Source: a virus. From it: a DNA stretch of 34,235 bases. Location: the IMG/VR virus record IMGVR_UViG_3300042445_003160, positions 1 through 34,235 of that record; one strand, written 5' to 3'. The notes under the pieces are model-generated. The model searched no databases. It was not told the DNA's origin and worked only from the letters and a program-made list of their open reading frames with translations. A program made the position numbers and the translations under genes. Numbering within the stretch: the stretch's first letter is position 1; every line of letters starts with the position of its first letter. Below are positions 361 to 23,205 of this stretch, one piece after another.

Positions 361-2940
361 CTACACTTCAAACTCGTCTCCGAAGGACTTGAGCTGGTTT
401 TCGAGGAACTCCTCCGCCGGGACGCCGTTGAGCCACCGGTGCGAATGGACCCAGATCGCCCCCCGGGAGCCGTCGATCCGGAACCGCTGCCCCTCGGCGT
501 AGCGTTCGTAGCCAAGCTGGGTGAGGTAGACGGCGGTGCGGTGGCCGGCGTCGCGGTGGACCCGGCCGACCAGTTCGTTTAGCCGCCCGATGTGGATCAC
601 CTGATCGTTGACGAGCGGGTCGGCCTTGTCGGCGATCAGGTCCTCGATGAAGACCTGCATGGAGTTCTTGCTCTCCTCGACGATGGCAGCGCGATACTTG
701 GTCCGCGGTGCCGGGCCGTTGTAGGGGAAGTCCGGAGAGATCACGCGCTTGCTGAACCAGTATCTCAACGCTCCCGCGCCTTGGTCGGTTAGCAGCCAGG
801 CAAGCCGGTCGAAGATGCCCGTCGCGTTGAGGGCCGCGACTTGCTCCGCGTTCTGGATCGGTGAGCGGACGAAGTTCCAGCGCCGGTCGCTTTCCTTGAG
901 ATGCAGGGCATCGGGGAAATTGGTGAACGCGATCTTGTTGGACCAGTTGTTCTCCTGCCGGGCGGAGATGTTGCGCTGGTTGACGGGGATCTTCTCGTCG
1001 GTGATGAACTCCTTCAAGCAGTTCATGACGGCCTCGCGGCGTTCGCCGGGGAAGTGGATCTCGTCGAGGATGTGGAACATCGCTCCCACCTGCCAGTCGT
1101 TCCACTGCGAGCGGAGGATGTCGGGCGAAACGACCCGCACGTTCCCGGCACCGAGGACCATCGACATGATCTTGCCGATGTAGCCCTTGCCCGTCCCTTC
1201 CGCCGACTGGATGCAGAAAAGCCACTTGATGAGCTTCCCGGGGAACTGGACCTGGGAGGCCAGGAAGTCGAGCAGCAGCTCGCGGAGCCAAGGCTCGGCG
1301 ATGAGGTGGAACACCAGCTCGGAAAACAGCGCCCCGGCGCGTGCCGAATGCTCCGGGTCGGCGACGGGGACCGAGAGGTGGTCGAAGGTGTTGAGGTAGC
1401 TCTGGCCCTCGTGCGTGAAGAACGGATCGCTGCCTTGGTGGAGCGGGCAGTAGATCGTGCGGTCCACGCGGGGGATGTCCATCAGGTTGAGCGCGTAGGA
1501 GGAAGGTGCCATGATCGGCTTCCCGTTCGGCGGGGCGTCCTCCTTGGGCATCAGCTCCTTCTCGAAGTTGCGGTCGAAGGCGGCCGGCTTAAGCTGGACC
1601 TGCGTGGTGAAATTGTGGAACACGTCCTGCGTCGCGATGAAGCAGATCGGCTGGAGCCAGGATGGCAGAGACTCCGTTCTACCATCCTGCTTGGCGTCCG
1701 CGTCGCGGCGGCGGACCTTGTGGATTTCGCGCTTCAACGTCGTCTTGTCGATCGTGTTGCCGGAAAGGGCTTTGATCGCGGTTCGCCAGAGGACGACCAG
1801 GGCTTCTTCGACCACGTCGTTTTTGAACGGCAGCGAGGCAATGCGTTTCGCCCCCTCCGCCATGAGGACATCCGGATCGGTGCAAGACGTCATCCATGCA
1901 GCCACGTCCTCCTTGATCTTGATCGCGACCTTGAGGTTGTCCCAGCCGGCGTCCATCGCCTGCTTGAACAAGGTCCGGATGGTGATCGGGGCGCGGCCCT
2001 TGGCGTAGGGGCGGAACGATTTCCACTTCGACCAGGTGTCACGGGATCCCCGGTATTTTGTCCCCCTTGAACTCCAGTCGTCGAACTTGTCGTAAGCCTC
2101 GCGGGCCTCTTCCTCGTCGGTGAACTGGTGACGCAGGGCCGCGGCGACCTCGGTCCAGATCTTGTAGTTGCAGTCCGGGTCGATCGCCTCAAGCGCCTCG
2201 CTGATGTCCCCGACCTTGAGACCTTGCACCGGCAGGTAGGCGAGACCGAAGAAGTCCTCGTCCCCGCCCCGCTCGAAAGCGTAGGTCCGGCCGTCGATCA
2301 TTTCGGACAGCTCCTCTTCGGGATCCGGCAAGTCGGACTCGTGGGCCAGCAGTCCCTGGGGTTGCGAGGCGATGACCGCGGTGAACTCCTCCCCGGAGAA
2401 CTGGACCGGGCGATACTGAGGCTGGGAAAGGACCAGGGACTCCCGCAGGCCCTTGAACGTGTCGGGCAGCCCGAGCCGGGAGACGAAGAACCGGACGAAC
2501 CGCCGGTGCAGCGACGGGTGGCACGGCGAGACGCCGATGGCAATCTTCAACCGGGGGTTCTCATCGGTGTGGTTTGCGGTCTTCCAAGCGACGAAAGCGA
2601 ACGGATAGAGGTGTTCGGCCAAGGTCTCCGGGGCTTCCGCGAAATCCTTGACGAACTCACCTTCGTCGAGGTCGATGATGATCGCGTTGACGTGGGTCGC
2701 CGTGTCGTCCTCCCGGTGCCCCTCGTCGAACGGGTAAGAGCAAGCCATCACGTAGGGGCCATCCTTCCGCCGGTTGCGCTCTTCCTTGGGAAGCGCGAAG
2801 AACTCGCGCCGGGTCATCGGCAGCTGGACCGGGATGTGGATGTAACGCTCGACGAGTTCCCGAAACGTGGTCGCGTTGAGTTTGCGGATCCGGCCGCCGA
2901 CGACGGTGCTTCCGCCGAAAAACGTGGTGGGGGTGCTCAT
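361..2940 (-). CDS. Primase-polymerase / superfamily 3-type helicase (replication protein)
   Basis: An 859-residue replication protein. The N-terminal part carries an acidic strand, AIIIDLDEGEF (Asp90 and Asp92), that fits the metal-binding motif of archaeo-eukaryotic primases. Residues about 243-335 match a PriCT-2 domain (ALEAIDPD, WTEVAAAL, WSKWKSFRP, TLFKQAMDAGW). Residues about 560-700 form an SF3/DUF5906-like helicase: Walker A QSAEGTGKG (578-586), Walker B FHILDEIHF (about 622-630) and a sensor-like IAFTNFPDA (Asn674). This order resembles the NrS-1-type phage polymerase family, in which one protein primes, polymerises and unwinds. I chose the ATG at 2940 because it overlaps the stop of the upstream helix-turn-helix gene (ATGA); the frame is open to 3252. 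The protein ends in an acidic GDEFEV tail shared with other proteins in the window. Confidence 0.88.
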   Translation of the reverse strand: MSTPTTFFGGSTVVGGRIRKLNATTFRELVERYIHIPVQLPMTRREFFALPKEERNRRKDGPYVMACSYPFDEGHREDDTATHVNAIIIDLDEGEFVKDFAEAPETLAEHLYPFAFVAWKTANHTDENPRLKIAIGVSPCHPSLHRRFVRFFVSRLGLPDTFKGLRESLVLSQPQYRPVQFSGEEFTAVIASQPQGLLAHESDLPDPEEELSEMIDGRTYAFERGGDEDFFGLAYLPVQGLKVGDISEALEAIDPDCNYKIWTEVAAALRHQFTDEEEAREAYDKFDDWSSRGTKYRGSRDTWSKWKSFRPYAKGRAPITIRTLFKQAMDAGWDNLKVAIKIKEDVAAWMTSCTDPDVLMAEGAKRIASLPFKNDVVEEALVVLWRTAIKALSGNTIDKTTLKREIHKVRRRDADAKQDGRTESLPSWLQPICFIATQDVFHNFTTQVQLKPAAFDRNFEKELMPKEDAPPNGKPIMAPSSYALNLMDIPRVDRTIYCPLHQGSDPFFTHEGQSYLNTFDHLSVPVADPEHSARAGALFSELVFHLIAEPWLRELLLDFLASQVQFPGKLIKWLFCIQSAEGTGKGYIGKIMSMVLGAGNVRVVSPDILRSQWNDWQVGAMFHILDEIHFPGERREAVMNCLKEFITDEKIPVNQRNISARQENNWSNKIAFTNFPDALHLKESDRRWNFVRSPIQNAEQVAALNATGIFDRLAWLLTDQGAGALRYWFSKRVISPDFPYNGPAPRTKYRAAIVEESKNSMQVFIEDLIADKADPLVNDQVIHIGRLNELVGRVHRDAGHRTAVYLTQLGYERYAEGQRFRIDGSRGAIWVHSHRWLNGVPAEEFLENQLKSFGDEFEV

Positions 2941-3149
2941 GGACGGTTGTGCTCCGCGAGCTTGGCGATCGGTTGATTGGTGAGAAACATGCAAAGCCTC
3001 TCGGCCTGCTCCAACCGGAGTCCCGGGCCTCGACCCGACATGAAGTCCCTCATCCTGAAATAGGGAAGCCCGGCCTCCTTGCAAAAGGGTTTTAGCTTTT
3101 TGGGTTGCTGCTCGACGAGCTTTCGCAAGAGGGTGGGAGTGTCTTCCAT
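2937..3149 (-). CDS. Small helix-turn-helix DNA-binding protein
   Basis: A 70-residue protein with the helical pattern of an XRE/Cro-like fold: LLRKLVEQQPKKLKPFCKEAG, then LPYFRMRDFMSGRG as the probable recognition segment, then LRLEQAERLCMFL. It lies directly upstream of the primase-helicase, and its TGA overlaps that gene's ATG by four bases, so the two are probably translated together. The start lies next to a divergent intergenic region containing a TACTA-N6-TAGTA inverted repeat. A role as an autoregulator or repressor of early or replication genes is reasonable but inferred. The fold assignment rests on helix spacing and size only. Confidence 0.68.
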   Translation of the reverse strand: MEDTPTLLRKLVEQQPKKLKPFCKEAGLPYFRMRDFMSGRGPGLRLEQAERLCMFLTNQPIAKLAEHNRP

Positions 3150-3317
3150 GGGCGGCGGGAGCGATGCCTACCCGATGCACCCTGCAACGGGCAAGCGCAA
3201 AGTTGCACTCTTGCAATCTTTCGGGTTCCCCGCACCATGCCACGCTGGACAAATTTTAAAAATTTTGCTAACAGTCGGATAGATCGTTTGCTACTAGGTC
3301 CGTAGTAACACCACGCC
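3150..3317. promoter_or_regulatory. Divergent intergenic region with TACTA-N6-TAGTA inverted repeat
   Basis: This 168-base gap separates the minus-strand HTH/primase pair from the plus-strand HNH-like gene, so it must hold promoters for both directions. It contains an A/T-rich stretch (AAATTTTAAAAATTTTGC near 3248-3265) and, close to the plus-strand ATG, the inverted repeat TACTAGGTCCGTAGTA (about 3291-3306), a plausible operator. The plus start is preceded by ACACCACGCC with no purine-rich ribosome site. Exact -35 and -10 boxes are not clear. Confidence 0.5.
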
Positions 3318-3869
3318 ATGATCCAGTCACTGTTGCCTCTCAGGGGTCGCGTCAAACTTGAAGTCGAGGGATTGTTCTCCCTCAAGGCCGAAGCCGGTTC
3401 CGGGCGCTGCGTGGTCCGCGGATGCCGCAAATGGCACATCCCCGAGACACGCGGCGGGAAGCTTCACCTGTGCGCCGGCCACTACCAGGCAAGGTGGCGA
3501 AAGCTCAATCCGAAACAGGCGGCGTTCGCCTCGTTGCGAGACCACGCCCGGGGCCGGAAGATCCTGTTCGCCCTGACCTTCGCCCACTTCGTCGAGGTCA
3601 CTGACGCGGCGGGGTTCTGGGACCAGGATGCCGGGCCGTTCGCCGACAGGCTCTCCATCGACAGGATCCTCGCCGCGGGGGGTTACGAGGATGGGAACAT
3701 CCAGGTTCTCACGGTGAGCGAGAACTCCGCGAAGAGCCACCGCGAGTCCTTTTTGAGCCGGGAGGTGCGCGAGATCCTGGCCACCCGCCGTGGCGAGCCT
3801 GCGGTGGCGTGGCACCTGGACGAGGGGAAGCACTGGCTCGGCGACCCCGAGGACGGGGAGCCGTTTTGA
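3318..3869 (+). CDS. Zinc-finger protein with HNH-like domain
   Basis: 183 residues. An N-terminal zinc finger of the form Cys31-x4-Cys36 ... Cys52-x2-His55 (CVVRGC, then LCAGHYQARW) resembles fingers that precede HNH modules in many phage and bacterial proteins. Residues 112-139 show the HNH-like signature LSIDRI...GGYEDGNIQVLT...EN..K, with Asp115, Asn127 and Asn136. The usual first His is not evident, so nuclease activity is uncertain; it could be a DNA-binding relative or a degenerate homing-type endonuclease. It is the only plus-strand gene among the minus-strand early genes and ends 8 bases from the stop of the converging neighbour. The C-terminus, DPEDGEPF, is acidic and aromatic, a little like single-stranded DNA-binding protein tails. 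Confidence 0.65.
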   Translation: MIQSLLPLRGRVKLEVEGLFSLKAEAGSGRCVVRGCRKWHIPETRGGKLHLCAGHYQARWRKLNPKQAAFASLRDHARGRKILFALTFAHFVEVTDAAGFWDQDAGPFADRLSIDRILAAGGYEDGNIQVLTVSENSAKSHRESFLSREVREILATRRGEPAVAWHLDEGKHWLGDPEDGEPF

Positions 3870-3877
3870 CCGCTCGT

Positions 3878-4510
3878 TCAGTATGCCCATTTGGCATCGC
3901 CAAGGATTTCGTCGGAGTCGGACCACCACTCGTCCCACTGCGCGTTGCTCGCTGCGTCCCAATCCGGGATCGCGGAAACCGCATCCTTGCCGGTGAGAGA
4001 CACCGGAAGCCATTTGATCCGGTTGTTCGGGTAAATGGCGACCTGTCCGTTCTCAAGGCGCAGCACGTTGCCCTCCTTGTGTTCCTCCAGCAGTTCCGCG
4101 TCCCCTACATCGAGCAGACCCGACGCTTGCCCTTCGGGCAAATAGTCGATGGTGAACCAGTAGTGCCCGCCCATGGGCTTCATCCCTTTCCCGAGGTTGA
4201 CCAGGACCGGAACATCGGCGAGTTGGTCCTTGCGCCAAATTTCAATCGACCCGGACAGGCATTCCCACATCTGGATTTTGTGGAGCGGCAGCGCCCCGGT
4301 GCCTTCTTCCGGCTCGAACCAAAAGATCAGATGCGGCGGCACCTTGTCGAAGCACGCGGCGTATTTTTCGACCCACACTTGGAAGCACAGGGGGCGGTTT
4401 CGCATCGCCCTCACGGAGACGAGCCATGCGGTTTCAAACTCATCGGCGGACCCCCCGAACGCATCGCAGCGGACGAAGACCTTGGTTTTCGGGCAATTCA
4501 CGTTTCTCAT
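3878..4510 (-). CDS. Hypothetical protein
   Basis: A 210-residue soluble protein rich in Trp and aromatics, with no family I can name. Visible segments are FQVWVEKYAACFDKVPPHLIFWFEP, an acidic and aromatic middle, and a C-terminus ending WDEWWSDSDEILGDAKWAY. I chose ATG at 4510, two bases after the stop of the upstream gene; a TTG two codons earlier (4516) would overlap that stop and is also possible. It is last in the minus-strand run and meets the HNH-like gene tail to tail with only 8 bases between. No transmembrane segment or signal peptide is visible. Confidence 0.68.
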   Translation of the reverse strand: MRNVNCPKTKVFVRCDAFGGSADEFETAWLVSVRAMRNRPLCFQVWVEKYAACFDKVPPHLIFWFEPEEGTGALPLHKIQMWECLSGSIEIWRKDQLADVPVLVNLGKGMKPMGGHYWFTIDYLPEGQASGLLDVGDAELLEEHKEGNVLRLENGQVAIYPNNRIKWLPVSLTGKDAVSAIPDWDAASNAQWDEWWSDSDEILGDAKWAY

Positions 4511-15707: not shown

Positions 15708-16492
15708 CAAACCCGACCATCACCACCGAGCAACTCCTTGACATTACCAAGTCCGCGGTCCTGCTGCGCCAGACTGCGGAACAGGCTCTCCGCTGCGAAT
15801 CGCTCGCACGGGAGCTGCACAGCACCCGGACCGACCGCGACTACCTCGCCGGGGTCCTTGAACGGACGCACCATGCCTTCGACGGCGACCCGGACGACGG
15901 GCCGGAAGACTTCAGCGCGTTGCCGAAGGCGGTCGAGGATCTGATGCACAAGTGCGAAGCAATCAAAGGCGAGGTGGTCACCGCGGGCAATCACGCCGCC
16001 TGCCGTTTGAACGTGTTGAGGGACATTTTCCTCATCCTCGGAACGGACGGGTCTCCGAACGAAGCCATGAACACGGTCACCGGCGTCCTGCCGCAGTTTG
16101 CCCGGTTGCCCAAGCGGATCAAGCAGCTCTTGGCGGACGTGACGACCTGGCGCGAGCGTTACGACAAGGAGGTCTGCAAGAACGGCGAGTTGGTCCGCGA
16201 AAACGAGACGCTGGCCCGCAACGCGCCGCCGAAGCCGCCGCTCATGGAGGAGGTCACGAACGTCGATGAGGTCGTCATTACCTACAACCGCAAGGACTTT
16301 CCAGCTCCCAAGCTCATTGGCCAGGCGTGGTGCCGCAGCGGCCGAACCGCTCCCGACTACGGGGTCGTCTTGCACTACCCCGACGGGTGGGTCGTCCTTT
16401 GCAACGTCCTCCAGGCCCAAAATGGTTCCTTGACCTATGCACCGATTCCGTTTGACGAGCTGCCGCATGTGAGCAGTATTGCGGCTCCGTGA
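15704..16492 (+). CDS. Hypothetical protein with coiled-coil middle
   Basis: 262 residues. The N-terminal half is helical with charged heptad-like segments (about residues 10-50 and 140-170, RYDKEVCKNGELVRENETLAR). The C-terminal 80 residues form a small strand-rich domain (VVITYNRKDFPAPKLIGQAW, YGVVLHYPDGWVVLCNVL). No family recognised. It is the last gene before a strong terminator, so it closes a transcription unit beginning near 13.9 kb. The start follows CACACCGACC. Confidence 0.68.
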   Translation: MTNPTITTEQLLDITKSAVLLRQTAEQALRCESLARELHSTRTDRDYLAGVLERTHHAFDGDPDDGPEDFSALPKAVEDLMHKCEAIKGEVVTAGNHAACRLNVLRDIFLILGTDGSPNEAMNTVTGVLPQFARLPKRIKQLLADVTTWRERYDKEVCKNGELVRENETLARNAPPKPPLMEEVTNVDEVVITYNRKDFPAPKLIGQAWCRSGRTAPDYGVVLHYPDGWVVLCNVLQAQNGSLTYAPIPFDELPHVSSIAAP

Positions 16493-16520
16493 CCCGCTAC
16501 AGGCGTGGTGGTCCACACCT

Positions 16521-16561
16521 AGCCCCGTCCCTCGCCTCCCCGGGGACGGGGCTTTTGTTTT
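16521..16561 (+). terminator. Rho-independent terminator
   Basis: AGCCCCGTCC (16521-16530) pairs with GGACGGGGCT (16544-16553), a 10-bp GC-rich stem with a 13-base loop, followed by TTTTGTTTT. It separates the recombinase-region genes from the packaging operon. Confidence 0.88.
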
Positions 16562-16565
16562 CCGA

Positions 16566-16594
16566 TTGACATCACGCCACAATGCTACGATTCT
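16566..16594 (+). promoter_or_regulatory. Candidate promoter of the packaging operon
   Basis: TTGACA (16566-16571), a 17-base spacer and GATTCT (16589-16594) directly follow the terminator. The spacer contains CACAATGCTAC, a copy of the dispersed GCTAC motif. Transcription would start at or very near the GTG at 16601, implying a leaderless or nearly leaderless message. The -10 matches only three of six consensus bases. Confidence 0.38.
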
Positions 16595-16600
16595 ACGTCT

Positions 16601-16906
16601 GTGGACATTGATGCAGCAATCAAGGAAGTGATGAAGGGCATGGGGCCGCCGGGACACCGGGCGTCCTACGGCCAGCACGTCCCTTTGGCGTGGATTATCC
16701 GGGGGCTCGTGGAGCGCGGACACCTGGTCTCCGAGAGCGTGAGGACCGTCGTCGCCAAAGCCGGCCTCGACCACGACCCGAAGGCGGTCGGCAGCGTCCG
16801 CGCCGCCTACTACCGCATCCGCGACCGGGAGTGGCCCGCCGAGATGGCGGCCGCGGCCGCGGCGGACGGGGTGCCCCGGGGAGAACCAGAAGATTTTGAA
16901 GTATGA
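16601..16906 (+). CDS. Small helical protein with DFEV tail
   Basis: 101 residues, GTG start at 16601; no in-frame ATG is better placed. Helical segments (WIIRGLVERGHLVSESVRTV, VRAAYYRIRDREWP) look like a small winged or helix-turn-helix-type DNA-binding fold, so a packaging accessory or terminase small-subunit role is possible because it leads the operon with the large subunit. An alanine-rich linker precedes the C-terminal GEPEDFEV, which matches the tails of the primase-helicase and the 152-residue protein. Its stop overlaps the next ATG (ATGA). Confidence 0.66.
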   Translation: MDIDAAIKEVMKGMGPPGHRASYGQHVPLAWIIRGLVERGHLVSESVRTVVAKAGLDHDPKAVGSVRAAYYRIRDREWPAEMAAAAAADGVPRGEPEDFEV

Positions 16907-17259
16907 ATTTTCCCGACGAAGCCCCTGACCACGAACCGGAAGCCATCAAGCTCGACGACGCCTACGACTGCTGCCTGCTCGGCGCGACCATCGGCCTTGA
17001 GGCCGACCGGTTCGTCTACTCGGTCAGCAAGCTCCTGCGCTTCGAGCGTGCCCGGATCCACGAAGGCAGCACCTCCGAGTCCCGCGAGGCGCTTGCGGAG
17101 ATCATCATGGACATCCAGCGCGAGCACGGCCCGATGTCGCCGGTGTTCCTCAATGACGAGCTGCTGAACCCGGTCGAGGACGGCGACGAAATCATCAAGC
17201 CCAAGATCATCACACCGGGCGATGCCTCGTTCCGGCGTCCACCCAAAGGACTTTGCTGA
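16903..17259 (+). CDS. Small acidic hypothetical protein
   Basis: 118 residues. KLDDAYDCCLLGATIGLEAD, FVYSVSKLLRFERAR and SPVFLNDEL loosely follow the pattern of the 100-residue protein at 14546 (YDxC..G, a strand with Tyr, K.L, PVFL), so the two may be diverged paralogues. It is translationally coupled to the gene before and ends two bases before the terminase ATG. Function unknown. Confidence 0.62.
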   Translation: MNFPDEAPDHEPEAIKLDDAYDCCLLGATIGLEADRFVYSVSKLLRFERARIHEGSTSESREALAEIIMDIQREHGPMSPVFLNDELLNPVEDGDEIIKPKIITPGDASFRRPPKGLC

Positions 17260-17261
17260 CC

Positions 17262-20200
17262 ATGGCAGTCGCCCTCACACCCGGAGCACCGCAGCCCCTC
17301 AACTGGTATGGGCTGAAGAGCCTTGGCTACGACGAGACGGTGATCCCGAGCACGGGCGACAGGACGCGTGACCAGCTCGCCATCGAAACGATCGCGTTCC
17401 GCATCGGGCACGCGACGTTTGAGGGCGGCCTCGGGCGTTTCGGGCACTTCAAGAATTACGTGGACGGCCTCTGGAACAATCCGGAGTCGGGATCCATGAA
17501 AAGGTGCATTTGGAACCCGTGGGCCAACCGCATGTTCCACAAGATGTGCGAGGAGAGGGAGCTTGGCATCGCCGGCCCGACATCTGCGGGGAAATGTTGT
17601 GCGCCGGAAACTCTCGTCCTGATGTTCGACGGATCCTCAAAACGGTTCGACGAAATTCGACCGGGTGATCAGGTCATGGGCGATGACAGCACCCCACGAA
17701 CCGTTCAGGAAATCCACACCGGACAAGGCCCCATGTTCGAGGTGATCCCTGAAAAAGGTGAACCGTGGCGATGCACGGAGGACCACGTTCTTGTGCTCAA
17801 GAGATCGATTGCTTCTGGGAAATCGTGGCGACGCCTTGGCGAGATCGTCGAGGTGCCAGCCAAGGAATTTTCGGAAGCGAGCGGGTCGAAACAGAGGTAT
17901 TTCAAGCAGTTCTGTGTCGGGGTGGATTTCCCCGAGCAGCGCGTTGAGGTAGACCCGAGGATGTTCGGGATTTGGATTGGTGACGGAGCGAGGCATCGGT
18001 GTAGGATTTCGATCCCCCGTTCCGAACCCGAGGTGTTTCGCTACGTAGCCGCGTGGTGCGAGCACGAGGGTTACGAAATGCGGGAATATGACCACGAGCA
18101 TCTGACCTGCCCCACCTATGCGGTGTTCCCGGAAGGAGATACGTCGGCAGGGACCACCACCAACCCGCTGTGGCGGTTTCTCAAGGCATCCATGGATGAC
18201 ATGGAGAAGCGGATCCCACGGCAGTATCTGATCAATTCCCGGTCGAAACGTCTCGGCCTTCTTGCCGGACTGCTGGATACCGACGGGCACGCGGCCGGCA
18301 CGTATTTCGAGATCGCCACCAAATTCACCGGATTGAAGGAAGACATCGTTTTCCTAGCCCGGTCCCTTGGGTTCAAGGTTTCGGCGGTTTACCGGCTTGC
18401 GACGTGCGGAGATAAAAAGTTCCCGTCGTGGAGAATTACGATTTTTGGCAACGTCACCGAAATCCCGACTTTAAGAAAGAAGTGTAAGGAGAAAGTGCTT
18501 CGCAAGAACTCGGATTGCACGGGAATCACGTTGGCGTCGGTCGGCGAAGGCGATTGGGTAGGGTTCTCCGTCGATGGCAACCACCGCTTCCTGCTTGCCG
18601 ACTTCACGGTCGCCCACAATAGCGACCCGGCCGCGCTCTACGGCGTCGTGAGCTACGCCACCGACCCGAGCCACACCCTGGTCCTCGTGATGTCCACGAC
18701 GATCGCGGGGGCCAAGAAGCGCATCTGGAAGACCCTGCGGGAATACTGGGAGGCGATTCCCCACCTGCCCGGCAAGGCATTGTGGTCCACCAACGAGATC
18801 CGCGGCCTCAACTACCGCGGCGACGGCTACGGAGAGTCCTCCGGCATCTACCTCCTCGCCTCGGAGCAATCCAACGAGAAGGCGGCGATGGACAAGCTCA
18901 TCGGGGTGAAGGCACCCCGCACCGGCGAGTCCGGAGCCACGTTCGGGGAGCTGATGCTCCAGCCGGAATATGCGGACCTTCGGAACCATTTCGACGAGGA
19001 GACGCTGCGCGATCTGATCCCCCGCCTGCACAATCTCAGCCAGGACCGGATCGGCAAGCTGCTGCTGATCATCGACGAGATGACTGGCATGGTCGAGTCG
19101 CTGCTCAACGCGGTGAACACCAACCTCAAGCCCGGGAACGTCGGGCACTTCCAGATCATCGGCCTCGGGAACCCGAACCTCCCCTACGACAGCTTCGCCC
19201 AGCTGTGCAAACCGAGGGGCGGCTGGGACAAGGTTGACCTGATCAACGACGAGGAGTGGGAGACTGAAACCGGGGGGCTTTGCATCCGGTTCAACGGCGA
19301 GAAGAACCCGCGCATCGTCGAGGGCAACGAGCGGTATTCGTGGATGCTCCGCAAGGAGGATATCGACGCCATGGCCGAGAAGTATGGCAAGGACTCGCTG
19401 TTTTACCACCGGATGGTCCTGGGGACCTGGTGCTTGAACGGCGGCGCTTCGGGCATCTACGCTCCCGCCGACATCGAACTGTCGGGAGCCCGCGACAGCC
19501 ACGTCATCTGGGAAGACAAGCCCGTGCCCGTGAGCTTCCTCGATCCATCCTTCACGGCCGGCGGCGACCGGGCATTCCCGACCTTCGGGCTGCTCGGCCA
19601 CGACGTTGACGGCAATCACATCCTCTTGAGAACCGGCACCGAGGTCATCCGGGTGGACGTCAACAATACCGCGGTGCCGATTAATTTCCAGATCGTGAGG
19701 CAGTGGAAGAAGATGTGCGAGTCCCGGGGGATCATGCCCGAGAACGCCGCCTACGACCGCACCGGCGGCGGGGTGCCGTTCGGTGATATCGTGTCCAACC
19801 AGTGGTCGTCAAAAGTCATGGGGATCACTTCCGCCGGCCCGGCGACCAAGTCGAAGGTCCACGGGGAGACCCACCCGGGCACCAAGAAGCCGGTTCTCGC
19901 CTGCGAGAGGTTCGCCAACCGGGCAACGGAGATCTGGTATAGCGCCCATCCGTTTTTCCGCAGCAAGCAGCTCAAGGGCGTCAACATGGAGCTGGCCAAG
20001 GAGCTTTGCAGCCGGCAGCATTCCAAGAACCGGTCGGCCGACGGCCGCACGATCCAGGTCGAGACCAAACGGATTTTCAAGGACCGCGAAGGGCGGTCGC
20101 CCGACGAGAGCGACAGCTACCTCGGACTCGTGGACTTCTGCAAGATCCGCCACCATTTTCAGCCCGGCGAGTTCAAGGCGACGGCGCAAGCCTCACACAA

Positions 20201-20282
20201 CGCCCCCGGAGGATCCACTTGGAAACGGTTTCGCGAAAAGGCGCTGAAATACACCCGCACCAAGCAACTGAAACGGAAATGA
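17262..20282 (+). CDS. Terminase large subunit, interrupted by an intein in the P-loop
   Basis: 1006 residues before splicing, about 664 after removal of a 342-residue intein (Cys112-Asn453). The spliced protein restores a perfect Walker A, GPTSAGK-S, with the intein exactly between Lys111 and Ser454. Walker B is LLLIIDEMTG (Asp605, Glu606). The nuclease domain shows acidic candidates at Asp761 (SFLDPSF), Asp832 (AAYDRTGGG) and Asp948/Asp951 (SPDESDSYL). It drives DNA into the prohead through the portal encoded two genes downstream and cuts the concatemer. ATG 17262 follows GCTGACC; a TTG three codons earlier is less likely. Its stop overlaps the next ATG. If splicing failed, the ATPase would be non-functional. 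Confidence 0.92.
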   Translation: MAVALTPGAPQPLNWYGLKSLGYDETVIPSTGDRTRDQLAIETIAFRIGHATFEGGLGRFGHFKNYVDGLWNNPESGSMKRCIWNPWANRMFHKMCEERELGIAGPTSAGKCCAPETLVLMFDGSSKRFDEIRPGDQVMGDDSTPRTVQEIHTGQGPMFEVIPEKGEPWRCTEDHVLVLKRSIASGKSWRRLGEIVEVPAKEFSEASGSKQRYFKQFCVGVDFPEQRVEVDPRMFGIWIGDGARHRCRISIPRSEPEVFRYVAAWCEHEGYEMREYDHEHLTCPTYAVFPEGDTSAGTTTNPLWRFLKASMDDMEKRIPRQYLINSRSKRLGLLAGLLDTDGHAAGTYFEIATKFTGLKEDIVFLARSLGFKVSAVYRLATCGDKKFPSWRITIFGNVTEIPTLRKKCKEKVLRKNSDCTGITLASVGEGDWVGFSVDGNHRFLLADFTVAHNSDPAALYGVVSYATDPSHTLVLVMSTTIAGAKKRIWKTLREYWEAIPHLPGKALWSTNEIRGLNYRGDGYGESSGIYLLASEQSNEKAAMDKLIGVKAPRTGESGATFGELMLQPEYADLRNHFDEETLRDLIPRLHNLSQDRIGKLLLIIDEMTGMVESLLNAVNTNLKPGNVGHFQIIGLGNPNLPYDSFAQLCKPRGGWDKVDLINDEEWETETGGLCIRFNGEKNPRIVEGNERYSWMLRKEDIDAMAEKYGKDSLFYHRMVLGTWCLNGGASGIYAPADIELSGARDSHVIWEDKPVPVSFLDPSFTAGGDRAFPTFGLLGHDVDGNHILLRTGTEVIRVDVNNTAVPINFQIVRQWKKMCESRGIMPENAAYDRTGGGVPFGDIVSNQWSSKVMGITSAGPATKSKVHGETHPGTKKPVLACERFANRATEIWYSAHPFFRSKQLKGVNMELAKELCSRQHSKNRSADGRTIQVETKRIFKDREGRSPDESDSYLGLVDFCKIRHHFQPGEFKATAQASHNAPGGSTWKRFREKALKYTRTKQLKRK
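17595..18620 (+). other. Intein with LAGLIDADG homing endonuclease inside the terminase
   Basis: The intein begins Cys1 (CCAPETLVLMFDG, block A with T6 and V8), has a block B TEDH (Thr61, His64) and ends HRFLLADFTVAHN with penultimate His and terminal Asn, followed by Ser+1. All residues of a class 1 intein are present, so splicing should work. Two LAGLIDADG-type motifs, MFGIWIGDGA (about intein residues 123-132) and LAGLLDTDG (about 223-231), keep their acidic residues, so the homing nuclease may be active. The segment appears less GC-rich than the exteins, consistent with separate acquisition. Confidence 0.93.
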
Positions 20283-20893
20283 TCCTCACGATCCCCTACC
20301 ACCCGCGCATCGCCGATTACGAGAAGCTTCGCATTACGATTCGCAAGCTCGGCACCAATCCGAACCACACCCTTTGCGTCGTCTCGACCCGCGAGCACGA
20401 GGAGGCGGCGTTCGAGTTCCTGATGGATCTCGGCGGTAGTTTCTTGCGCCAGTTTGCGGTCGTGGTGCCGGACGCCGCGGAGACGCCGGTCCACTTGTCG
20501 AACAGGCTGTTCCTGGCGTCGATGAAAGCGTTGCGCGAGTATACCCCCAGCGTGCAGGAAAACCCGCGGCCGGCGATGCTTTATTTCGACCCGACCTGGA
20601 TGCCGGTCACGTCGCGGTGGCTCGACGAGCTTCAGACCGGATATTACCTGTCGGGAGCGCCGCAGGTCTTCGGATACTTCAAGCTCCGGGACGACGGCAG
20701 CCCGCTGCCGACAGGTCCGATCGCTTTTGCCAAAACCTACCCGGAGCAATCAAAGCTGCTCGACTTCATCCTCGACTCAGGCAAACACTGGCGGGATTAT
20801 TTGTCTTGGGAGACCTTTAACATTGCGGTAAAAACGGACGCCATAGGCCCGACAAAAGCGGCCTGCATTCGCCCACAACCTGTGAAAAAGTGA
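20279..20893 (+). CDS. Glycosyltransferase-like (GT-A fold) protein
   Basis: 204 residues. MILTIPYHP and HTLCVVSTREHEEAAFEFL look like the first beta-alpha units of a nucleotide-sugar-binding fold. AMLYFDPTWMPVTSRWLDEL matches the pattern hydrophobic-(E/D)P-x-x-x-P-...-WLDEL seen in phage-borne GT-A glycosyltransferase-like proteins. The usual DxD motif is not intact (FDPTW), so catalysis is uncertain. It is coupled to the terminase (ATGA) and to the portal gene (stop and start share one base). Its place in a packaging operon is common for such proteins; the substrate is unknown. Confidence 0.5.
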   Translation: MILTIPYHPRIADYEKLRITIRKLGTNPNHTLCVVSTREHEEAAFEFLMDLGGSFLRQFAVVVPDAAETPVHLSNRLFLASMKALREYTPSVQENPRPAMLYFDPTWMPVTSRWLDELQTGYYLSGAPQVFGYFKLRDDGSPLPTGPIAFAKTYPEQSKLLDFILDSGKHWRDYLSWETFNIAVKTDAIGPTKAACIRPQPVKK

Positions 20894-23205
20894 TGTCCGA
20901 CGATCTTTACAAGGAATTTGACGAGCTTGGTCTCCAGAAGCCCGGAACCAGCGGTTCACCACCACGGGAGCGGTTGACCAGCCCCACCAAGCTGCGCGAC
21001 TGCCACACGCGGCTTCGCGAGGACGACAGGATCAACGCGTTCAACCGCGGCCTTGCACAGGCGCTGCTCGATGGCGAGCCTCCCTACGACCAGAGCGATC
21101 TCAACGACGGCAACCAGCCGGACACGACCAACCTCAACTTCCAGGGCGCGGAGCAGAAGCTCGAACGGGCCAAGGCCCCCTACGACCGCCTCATCTACAC
21201 CGGAGAGGTCCTGGTCAGCGTCAATACCGACCACGGCCCGCAGGACGAGCGCGGGGAGTGGGAGACGGCGATGAACGAGGAGATCTCCGCCACCATCCGC
21301 GAAGAGGAGTCGTTTCCCTACGAGATGGACCGGCTCATCACCAAGCACGTCTGGGAAGGGCTAGGCATCGCCCACTGGGAAGACGACATCGACTGGAGGT
21401 TCCGTGCATCCGGTCTCGGACAATTTTTCTTTCCCCGCAGGGTGGCGATCCTTGAGTCCCGGCAAGAGTATGTCACTGCCGACCAGGAGTTCACCATCAG
21501 CGACCTCTACGCCAAGATCTCCGATCCGGAGTCCGCGGAGAAAAACGGTTGGAACCCCGCCGCGGTTCGCCGCGCCATTGAAAAAGCCACCGCGTCCGAA
21601 CCCCCCTACAACGACTGGGAGCGCCTCGTGGAAGAGGTCAAGAACAACGACCTGTTCGTCGGCACCCGGCTTCCCACCATCCGGGCGGTCCACGGCTTCG
21701 TGAAGGAGTTCGACGGCACGGTGTCGCATTACCTCACCACCGAGGACGGCTGCGGCCACATCGAGGAGGAGAAGTTCATGTTCAAGAGCCGCCAGGTCTA
21801 CCGGTCGATGACCCAGGCGCTCGTCATGTTCCCCTACGGCCGCGGCACCAACGGCACGGTCCACGGGAACCGCGGCCTCGGCTACAAGGTCCACCCTTTC
21901 GAGCAGCAGCGAAACCGTTCGATCGGCCGCCTGATCGACAAGGGGCTCCAGGCGTCCAGCCTCATGCTCCAAGCGACGGATGAGACGGACATGGCCAATG
22001 TCGGCCTCACCTATTACGGGGACTGCGCGATCCTGCCACCCGGGGTGTCGGCACCCAACATCGCGATGCCGGACCTCACGAGGAGCGTCATCCCCGCGCT
22101 CGACCTGATGGACCGCCTCGTCAACGAGCGCACCGCGAGCTACTCGCCCGAGAACGTCTTCGACGGCGACCAGCGGAAGACCAAGTTCGAGATCGCCGCG
22201 AACCTGGAGCAATCCACCGAACTGTCGGACAGCTCGATCAATTTCTTCTACGGCCCCGGCGACCGCCTGTTCCAACAGATCGTCCGCCGCATGACCCGCC
22301 GGGAGTATGTCCCGATCGAACCCGGGGGCGAGGCGATCGCAGACCTCCGCAAGCGCCTCGTGAAACGCGGCATCCCGCTCGAAGCGTTTTTCAAAATCGA
22401 TTGGAAGCGGGTGAAAATGGTGCGGGTCATCGGTGCCGGCAGCGCGGCGGCGAAGACCATCGGGCTTCAGCGGATGGGCGAATTGCGCCCCCGGATGGAC
22501 GACGTCGGGCAGGCAGCACTCGACCGTGAAGTGGCCATCGACTCGGTCGGCATCGCCGGCGCGGACAAGTTCTTCCCGAAGAACAGCGACTTCCGCACGA
22601 CGGCCGACACCCAGATCGCCATCCTCCAGAACTACGCGATCATCAACGGCCAACAGGTTCCGGTGCTTTCCAGCGACAAGCATATGGCCCACGCCCGCGA
22701 GCACCTCAAGCCCTTGCTGGACGCATACCAGGCCACCGCTGCCGGGGAGATGGAGGAGATGGAGTTCGCCCTCACCTTCGGCGACCTGTTCGCCCACGCC
22801 GTGGAGCACGTCTCGGCGGTCGAGGGGGACCCCTCGGCGATCGAAGAGGCTGCCGCGATGCGGCAGATGCTCCAACAGGTCGAGGAGTTCATCAACAACG
22901 GCTACAAGGCCGCCGAGGCCGCCGAGCAGGAGGCCGCGGAGAACCCGCAAGCCGCCCCCGGCGGTGCCCCGCAGGAGGGTCCCTCGGTCGAGCAGGCCGA
23001 GCGGTTTGCCAAAGCGCAGGCCGAGATCGAGATCATGAAGGCGAAAGCCGACGCAGGCATTTCGATCGAGGTCGAGAAGAACCAGGCCAGGATCGCGATG
23101 GATGATGCACGCACGGCCGCCGAGATCCGCCGGAAGAACATGGCGTTCACCGCGACGCCACCGAAGCCCGCGGCGAAGAAAGCTAAGCCCGCGAAGGGAA
23201 GCTGA
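20893..23205 (+). CDS. Portal protein
   Basis: 770 residues, similar in length to large portals such as those of P22-like or N4-like phages. Called from its position between terminase and scaffold/capsid and its composition: acidic N-terminus, a mixed core with many Tyr and Arg (VPIEPGGEAIADLRKRLVKR), and a long helical C-terminal region (about residues 675-745, EQAERFAKAQAEIEIMKAKA) with a basic PKPAAKKAKPAKGS end, as in C-terminal barrel regions of large portals. A dodecameric ring through which DNA passes is the family's known structure. The start ATG 20893 shares a base with the upstream TGA; a GTG one codon earlier is also open. Confidence 0.78.
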   Translation: MSDDLYKEFDELGLQKPGTSGSPPRERLTSPTKLRDCHTRLREDDRINAFNRGLAQALLDGEPPYDQSDLNDGNQPDTTNLNFQGAEQKLERAKAPYDRLIYTGEVLVSVNTDHGPQDERGEWETAMNEEISATIREEESFPYEMDRLITKHVWEGLGIAHWEDDIDWRFRASGLGQFFFPRRVAILESRQEYVTADQEFTISDLYAKISDPESAEKNGWNPAAVRRAIEKATASEPPYNDWERLVEEVKNNDLFVGTRLPTIRAVHGFVKEFDGTVSHYLTTEDGCGHIEEEKFMFKSRQVYRSMTQALVMFPYGRGTNGTVHGNRGLGYKVHPFEQQRNRSIGRLIDKGLQASSLMLQATDETDMANVGLTYYGDCAILPPGVSAPNIAMPDLTRSVIPALDLMDRLVNERTASYSPENVFDGDQRKTKFEIAANLEQSTELSDSSINFFYGPGDRLFQQIVRRMTRREYVPIEPGGEAIADLRKRLVKRGIPLEAFFKIDWKRVKMVRVIGAGSAAAKTIGLQRMGELRPRMDDVGQAALDREVAIDSVGIAGADKFFPKNSDFRTTADTQIAILQNYAIINGQQVPVLSSDKHMAHAREHLKPLLDAYQATAAGEMEEMEFALTFGDLFAHAVEHVSAVEGDPSAIEEAAAMRQMLQQVEEFINNGYKAAEAAEQEAAENPQAAPGGAPQEGPSVEQAERFAKAQAEIEIMKAKADAGISIEVEKNQARIAMDDARTAAEIRRKNMAFTATPPKPAAKKAKPAKGS

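Follow-up and report, generated by a model that had tools for sequence, protein, structure and literature searches.

A class-1 intein with a LAGLIDADG endonuclease in the Walker A motif of a probable phage large terminase

Introduction

A probable large terminase (TerL) gene in which the Walker A lysine and the serine that should follow it are parted by 342 codons raises the question of what separates them, how the two could be rejoined, and how the insertion came to lie at this position. The gene belongs to IMG/VR virus record IMGVR_UViG_3300042445_003160, of which positions 1 to 34,235 were analysed (34,235 nucleotides, hereafter the window). A first-pass annotation, made from the sequence alone, had described an apparently complete intein with a homing endonuclease at 17595-18620, set between Lys and Ser of GPTSAGKS in the terminase P-loop, and had argued that packaging is conditional on protein splicing. 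Here, we compare this element and its host gene with viral relatives, with structural models and with published inteins.

Results

The coordinates and insertion point given in the first-pass annotation proved exact. The insertion is 342 residues long and in frame, forming residues 115-456 of an ORF that starts at TTG 17253, with no stop or frameshift across the segment. It opens with CCAPETLV and ends with VAHN, after which comes Ser; without it, GPTSAGK runs into SDPAALYG. The parts of the element are as follows.

17595..18620, + strand: intein, 342 aa, with class-1 residues and a LAGLIDADG homing endonuclease (from the frame, Pfam, model, PI-SceI alignment and profile)
17595..17597, + strand: Cys1, the first of two adjacent Cys in the intein (position 1 in the relatives' alignments)
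17775..17786, + strand: block B, Thr61-Glu-Asp-His64 (His64 invariant in 45 aligned inteins)
17961..17987, + strand: LAGLIDADG motif 1, MFGIWIGDG, with acid Asp130 (aligned to PI-SceI residue 218)
18258..18287, + strand: LAGLIDADG motif 2, LLAGLLDTDG, with acid Asp230 (aligned to PI-SceI residue 326)
18561..18620, + strand: C-terminal splicing blocks, GFSVDGNHRFLLADFTVAHN (from the sequence and alignments with relatives)

The splicing residues that define class 1 (Cys1, Thr61/His64, His341-Asn342 and Ser+1), which had been called intact, are all present, together with a Hint fold recognised both by Pfam and in an AlphaFold2 model. The whole ORF matched Pfam Hom_end_hint (E 1.1e-12) and Hom_end (E 1.3e-5), both passing the curated cut-offs, and these sequence matches are independent evidence against chance. 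The intein model, built from 45 viral inteins, reached a pLDDT of 94.0 and a pTM of 0.91, and its eleven top PDB matches in Foldseek were all PI-SceI/VMA1 entries (1ef0, E 2.1e-26; 1vde, E 4.3e-26), so the predicted fold can confidently be called Hint plus LAGLIDADG. We take residues 218, 326, 301 and 403 of PI-SceI to be catalytic. The acids at 218 and 326 align with Asp130 and Asp230, bearing out the two LAGLIDADG motifs of the first reading, and residue 301 aligns with Lys205 of the intein; residue 403 falls on Val301, with Lys300 adjacent. Asp228 and Asp230 are invariant across the 45 aligned inteins. GC content is 0.57 in the intein versus 0.62-0.63 in the exteins. A search of six-frame segments of at least 40 aa with a profile of the 45 inteins found no second copy in the window, leaving a single copy at 17595-18620, whose own E-value is not independent because the profile includes the window's intein. 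Anatomy, fold and site thus come from sequence comparison, which supports a class-1 intein that looks complete, holds a LAGLIDADG endonuclease and interrupts the Walker A of TerL.

The host gene comprises the following parts.

17262..17594, + strand: TerL N-extein, 111 aa from ATG 17262 (the ORF is open also from TTG 17253), ending GPTSAGK (relatives' matches stop at the K)
17574..17594, + strand: Walker A GPTSAGK, parted by the intein from the next Ser (the empty site of relative L030 reads GPTSAGK↓S, the arrow marking the junction)
18621..20279, + strand: TerL C-extein, 553 aa, opening with the Walker A Ser (Ser+1) and followed by a stop codon at 20280-20282 (from relatives)
18921..19058, + strand: 46-residue extein insertion immediately before Walker B (alignment with relatives)
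19059..19079, + strand: Walker B, picked out by eye as LLLIIDE (Asp152 and Glu153 unchanged across 9 aligned sequences)

The intein-less product has a computed length of 667 aa from TTG 17253 or 664 aa from ATG 17262, the latter agreeing with the ~664 residues first predicted. The 46-residue stretch was considered as a remnant element, which is not supported: L029 and the intein-free L030 hold it in similar form, and it is missing from eight other aligned relatives.

Terminase matches of the unsplit protein to PHROGs were rejected as evidence for TerL, since nearly all lie within the intein and none was obtained with the C-extein alone. PHROG families 19299, 15 and 36964 match the window protein (17253-20279) almost solely across the intein, and intein-bearing families can therefore mislabel intein hosts as terminases. 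As the window C-extein alone had no Pfam or PHROG match at E up to 0.1, the fold was used to test what the host is. The naturally intein-free relative L030, 63% identical in the C-extein, was modelled as a stand-in for the host; as a whole protein it had no Pfam match and a single weak match to a PHROG of unknown function (E 0.0095). The L030 model is of middling confidence (pLDDT 74.6, pTM 0.52). Its PDB matches at E<=0.001 number 22, every one a terminase entry; the best is Sf6 gp2 (E 1.5e-14), and query TM-scores are only 0.25-0.35. Two T7 threading models are among the 22, as is an entry whose title names the monomeric terminase complex. With a sequence profile of the family, the best PDB chains were Sf6 gp2 and E217 TerL, both weak (E 0.015-0.09). 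In our reading the host is a large terminase whose lineage Pfam and PHROGs do not cover, a label that rests on fold comparison; the terminase host of the first-pass annotation is upheld in this way, the family libraries having given no TerL match.

Adjoining the terminase is a 771-residue protein (window 20890-23205), which is kept in L030 (59%) and in more distant relatives. It has no Pfam or PHROG match and is, by position, a putative portal.

We then compared the insertion site among relatives. In a first scan the site was empty in 13 of 13, the N- and C-extein matches abutting exactly at K↓S. An alignment-based scan gave 45 related TerL loci, the first 13 included: 35 are empty (Lys directly followed by Ser or Thr), three carry a window-type intein, one carries a different intein and six (L052, L053, L054, L057, L058 and L060) are unscorable, the match having stopped short of the site. 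A comparison with inteinless terminases had been proposed in the first-pass annotation, and it finds 35 of the 39 scorable relatives empty at K↓S, many of the 35 being close kin. The three window-type inteins (L029, L050 and L051, the latter two near-copies) lie at the identical junction. Their identity to the window intein is 57-58% for L029/L061, two handles for a single contig, and 47% for L050/L051. Relatives with a different junction had been named as the observation that would speak against the reading; the three loci (of 45) whose intein is related to the window's share its junction, and the different intein of L045 is no contradiction.

In L045 (3621-6512) the different intein sits three residues upstream (..AS↓C...HHN↓SGKS), so the Walker A has been entered at two places within one terminase family.

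An empty site is also seen in L030, which is co-linear with the window across eight ORFs and reads GPTSAGK↓S without an intein; the DNA flanks of its site are identical to those of the window at 17/24 and 15/24 positions. In a TerL tree of 29 proteins, the empty L030 and the intein-bearing L061 form a group at 92/83, a support below the starred level, and the window falls outside this group; deeper placements are unsure because long branches meet. Intein presence and absence require six changes on this tree, three of them forced by well-supported branches. A DNA search of window positions 16000-23000 against phages returned only one match, 82 bases at the 3' end of the intein.

Identity was higher in the intein than in the extein in nine of ten TerL comparisons with the window (for example 0.50 versus 0.28 for L062), and the 95% bootstrap interval of the difference lay above zero in eight of the ten, although these comparisons are not independent and extein saturation could add to the difference. 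The exception is the nearest pair, window and L061 (intein 0.58 versus extein 0.70). The pattern agrees with earlier lateral movement between distantly related terminases, the nearest pair having received the element by ordinary descent. A recent arrival in this virus is not indicated, since the window and L061 are more alike in extein than in intein and synonymous sites are near saturation. In the endonuclease region, nonsynonymous differences are far below synonymous ones in six of six pairs; dN/dS has no numeric value for most pairs because synonymous sites are saturated. In the SF2 helicase group, the pair L100/L126 has a synonymous difference (pS) of 0.27 in the intein versus 0.69 in the extein, which suggests a recent intein transfer.

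These comparisons bear on whether the element might still splice while its endonuclease is dead and is now passed on by vertical inheritance. Such a state would agree with the greater intein than extein difference between the window and L061, with recent exchange being unseen, and with the alignment of PI-SceI residue 403 to Val301 (Lys300 adjacent). However, both acids and Lys205 are retained, nonsynonymous differences are low in the endonuclease region, the window/L061 pair included, and the intein-free L030 falls inside the small window/L061 group. We therefore consider a dead endonuclease rather improbable, while granting it some weight.

How the intein is distributed outside terminases was addressed through its relatives. 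A search of viral contigs with the single intein sequence found nothing, whereas an alignment search with the intein only found at least 530 confirmed relatives, of which the best 80 were kept. A search of genome contigs with the intein alignment, made through two short, narrow peptide patterns, gave 57 pattern matches and 0 confirmed relatives. Joined at 90% identity, the best 80 and the window form 59 inteins in 16 host groups unlinked by BLAST. Among these nearest relatives (from the best 80 of at least 530), 54 of 59 inteins lie at K↓S/T and five at G↓SGK; the count of 54 takes L106 as Ser-initiated, by reading of the alignment, and includes four with degenerate motifs such as SMSK or KRYK (L071, L078, L113 and L131). 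One representative each of 15 of the 16 host groups was scanned, L114 being the sixteenth, and in 11 groups it matches a family of terminases, helicases, DnaB or AAA proteins at E <=1.1e-6. Of the others scanned, the window's group is assigned by fold, L083 has a weak match (E 0.016), the family matched by L103 is of unknown function and L089 has no match. Some of the 16 groups are distantly related to each other (phrog_38 is matched by two, two resemble DnaB and several are terminases), so that the number is not a count of unrelated families.

An intein tree of 70 rows was built from the 59 inteins and 11 from phage records, leaving out L019 and L025 (like L016); host labels of the 11 were taken from the record annotation or by eye. 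The window intein lies within a set of eight terminase inteins (100/99), itself inside a set of 22 that includes UvrD, SF2, SNF2 and DnaB hosts (99/98). Host labels require 25 changes on this tree (minimum 15), against an average of 45.9 in shuffles, none of 200 being as low. The starred inner branches, 27 of 67, by themselves force five changes for the SF2 label and three for UvrD. The inteins thus appear mostly to keep to one host type, with more than one crossing between types.

A second sample, again of 80 loci, was gathered using four Walker A inteins and a crAss-like portal intein as seeds; it is redundant and overlaps the first. Here 54 lie at K↓S/T, 18 at G↓S/TGK and eight elsewhere, and at least one of the 54 does not lie in a Walker A (L191, NPLSK↓T). 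These sites, L191 among them, indicate that the Walker A bias is strong but not absolute, and looser with distance. The phage collection gave 235 matching records. Sixteen intein matches were fetched: nine lie at GK↓T, four at G↓SGK (three terminases and helicase YX3973), and the other three are cr118_1, DAC15 and Gizmo, the last a remote partial match elsewhere in a portal.

Four of these loci deserve separate description. L141 (cr118_1) has a related intein at 2501-3562, placed at GGK↓S of an annotated portal protein, which is no ATPase. The comparable EGGK of L144 has Pro as its next residue, and there a related intein lies a few residues upstream in that stretch. In L142 (Bacteroides phage DAC15), an intein-like segment at ~2501-3496 follows RGAGK, is by eye Ala-initiated and ends HN↓S; it is possibly an Ala1 intein in a Walker A. 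In the L079 terminase one intein sits at GK↓S, and further downstream (C-extein 1797-4181) there is a second intein-like segment, which matches Pfam Intein_splicing (2.1e-17) and HNH_3 (8.8e-5, below its cut-off).

A shared site could be set by DNA or by peptide. Codons at the junction were compared with each gene's own usage in 53 of the 59 inteins, the five at G↓SGK and L106 being excluded. No codon bias was found at Gly-2 or Lys-1 (|z| <=1.5), a comparison that would miss an endonuclease tolerating degenerate bases. Deviations reached up to 2.7 at other junction positions, with many codons compared and uncorrected, and the largest (AGG at -5 and TCA at +5) each came mainly from one host group. 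Tentatively, and at somewhat less than even odds, we suggest that the window intein belongs to a virus-borne lineage specialised on the Walker A, which may have moved between unrelated ATPase genes (several kinds of terminase, SF1/SF2 helicases, DnaB and AAA+) to the same peptide, G-K↓S/T. The choice of site would in that case depend on the local peptide and on protein-level selection, not on one DNA target. The GGK↓S insertion of cr118_1, in an annotated crAss-like portal that is not an ATPase, fits such a peptide-level choice of site.

Discussion

We put at roughly 95% the probability that the element is a class-1, PI-SceI-like intein (Hint plus LAGLIDADG) that lies between the Walker A Lys and Ser of a phage TerL and excises itself. 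Splicing, DNA cutting and an effect on packaging we infer from the intact residues and the known behaviour of such inteins. The TerL gene would be translated as a single precursor of ~1006 residues, out of which the intein would excise itself by an acyl shift at Cys1, transesterification to Ser+1 and cyclisation of Asn342 with His341. GPTSAGK would thereby be joined to S, giving an ordinary 664-residue motor. The endonuclease would most likely cut the intein-free terminase genes of co-infecting relatives, into which the element would be copied. As the Walker A Lys and Ser are separated in the precursor, it is a reasonable inference that packaging depends on splicing.

This dependence could go further if the intein were retained as a switch, with slow or condition-dependent splicing allowing packaging only once the motor is spliced. 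A precursor in which the Walker A Lys is parted from its Ser should indeed be ATPase-dead, and the window intein starts with two adjacent Cys. A P-loop intein is reported to disrupt the ATPase function of RadA, and an oxidation-induced disulfide to inhibit splicing of a mycobacterial DnaB P-loop intein (PMC6195587). However, intein-free relatives are common (35 of 45 loci, including the co-linear L030), so this type of virus can do without a switch, and an intact endonuclease region under purifying selection fits a selfish element. We regard retention as a switch as quite unlikely. That the element is an artefact of assembly or annotation, or an intein in decay, is barely credible: the window is one virus record, but its frame is uninterrupted, the tested catalytic positions are intact and a second contig (L029/L061) has the same arrangement with 57-58% intein identity.

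With the self-excising intein as the preferred reading, the window contributes a P-loop intein with clear boundaries, hosted by a TerL lineage missed by family libraries, with natural intein-free relatives for comparison. The wider set of inteins makes it testable why inteins gather at P-loops. A lineage defined by sequence, whose hosts belong to several unrelated ATPase families but whose site is a single one at the peptide level, would help to tell explanations by target DNA from those by protein. That one lineage occupies the Walker A of many unrelated viral ATPases was not stated in the titles and abstract openings of the papers listed in a literature search, and we make no claim of its absence from print.

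Comparison with known inteins

The yeast VMA1 intein PI-SceI (1vde, 1lws) has the same Hint plus LAGLIDADG architecture, with both acids aligned, and matches over the whole length of the fold at query TM-scores of 0.76-0.84. It has 454 residues compared with 342 in the window intein, mostly because the stretch between the two parts is smaller in the latter (residues 54-121 versus 54-209). The host of PI-SceI is the V-ATPase, where the insertion site is outside the Walker A, whereas the window intein is hosted by TerL.

The inteins of Bacteroides phage BS162P1, Vibrio phage 393E50-1 and Klebsiella phage RCIP0054 are full-length relatives that are 32-35% identical and sit at GK↓T; the hosts of the first two are annotated helicases and that of RCIP0054 a hypothetical protein, whereas the window host is a terminase. 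The TerL inteins of KpV2811, pIS4-A and Segz_1 are also related and lie in a terminase Walker A, but their junction, G↓SGKT, is three residues earlier than the window's.

No mycobacteriophage TerL intein is among the matches listed from the 235 phage records. A published parallel in position is the mycobacteriophage TerL1-a intein, described as a 'classic' P-loop insertion that separates the invariant Walker A Lys from the hydroxyl residue after it (PMC5050341), in keeping with the earlier statement that inteins in phage terminases are known. The P-loop preference of inteins is likewise known, its reason being posed as open (PMC5874633). With the Lys↓Thr site of TerL1-a and this preference already described in those sources, the window intein is a good further example and not new in type. 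It likewise follows the Walker A Lys, but has Ser at +1 where TerL1-a has Thr, and TerL1-a resides in a terminase_1 TerL whereas the window host belongs to another TerL lineage, with no Pfam terminase family among its matches.
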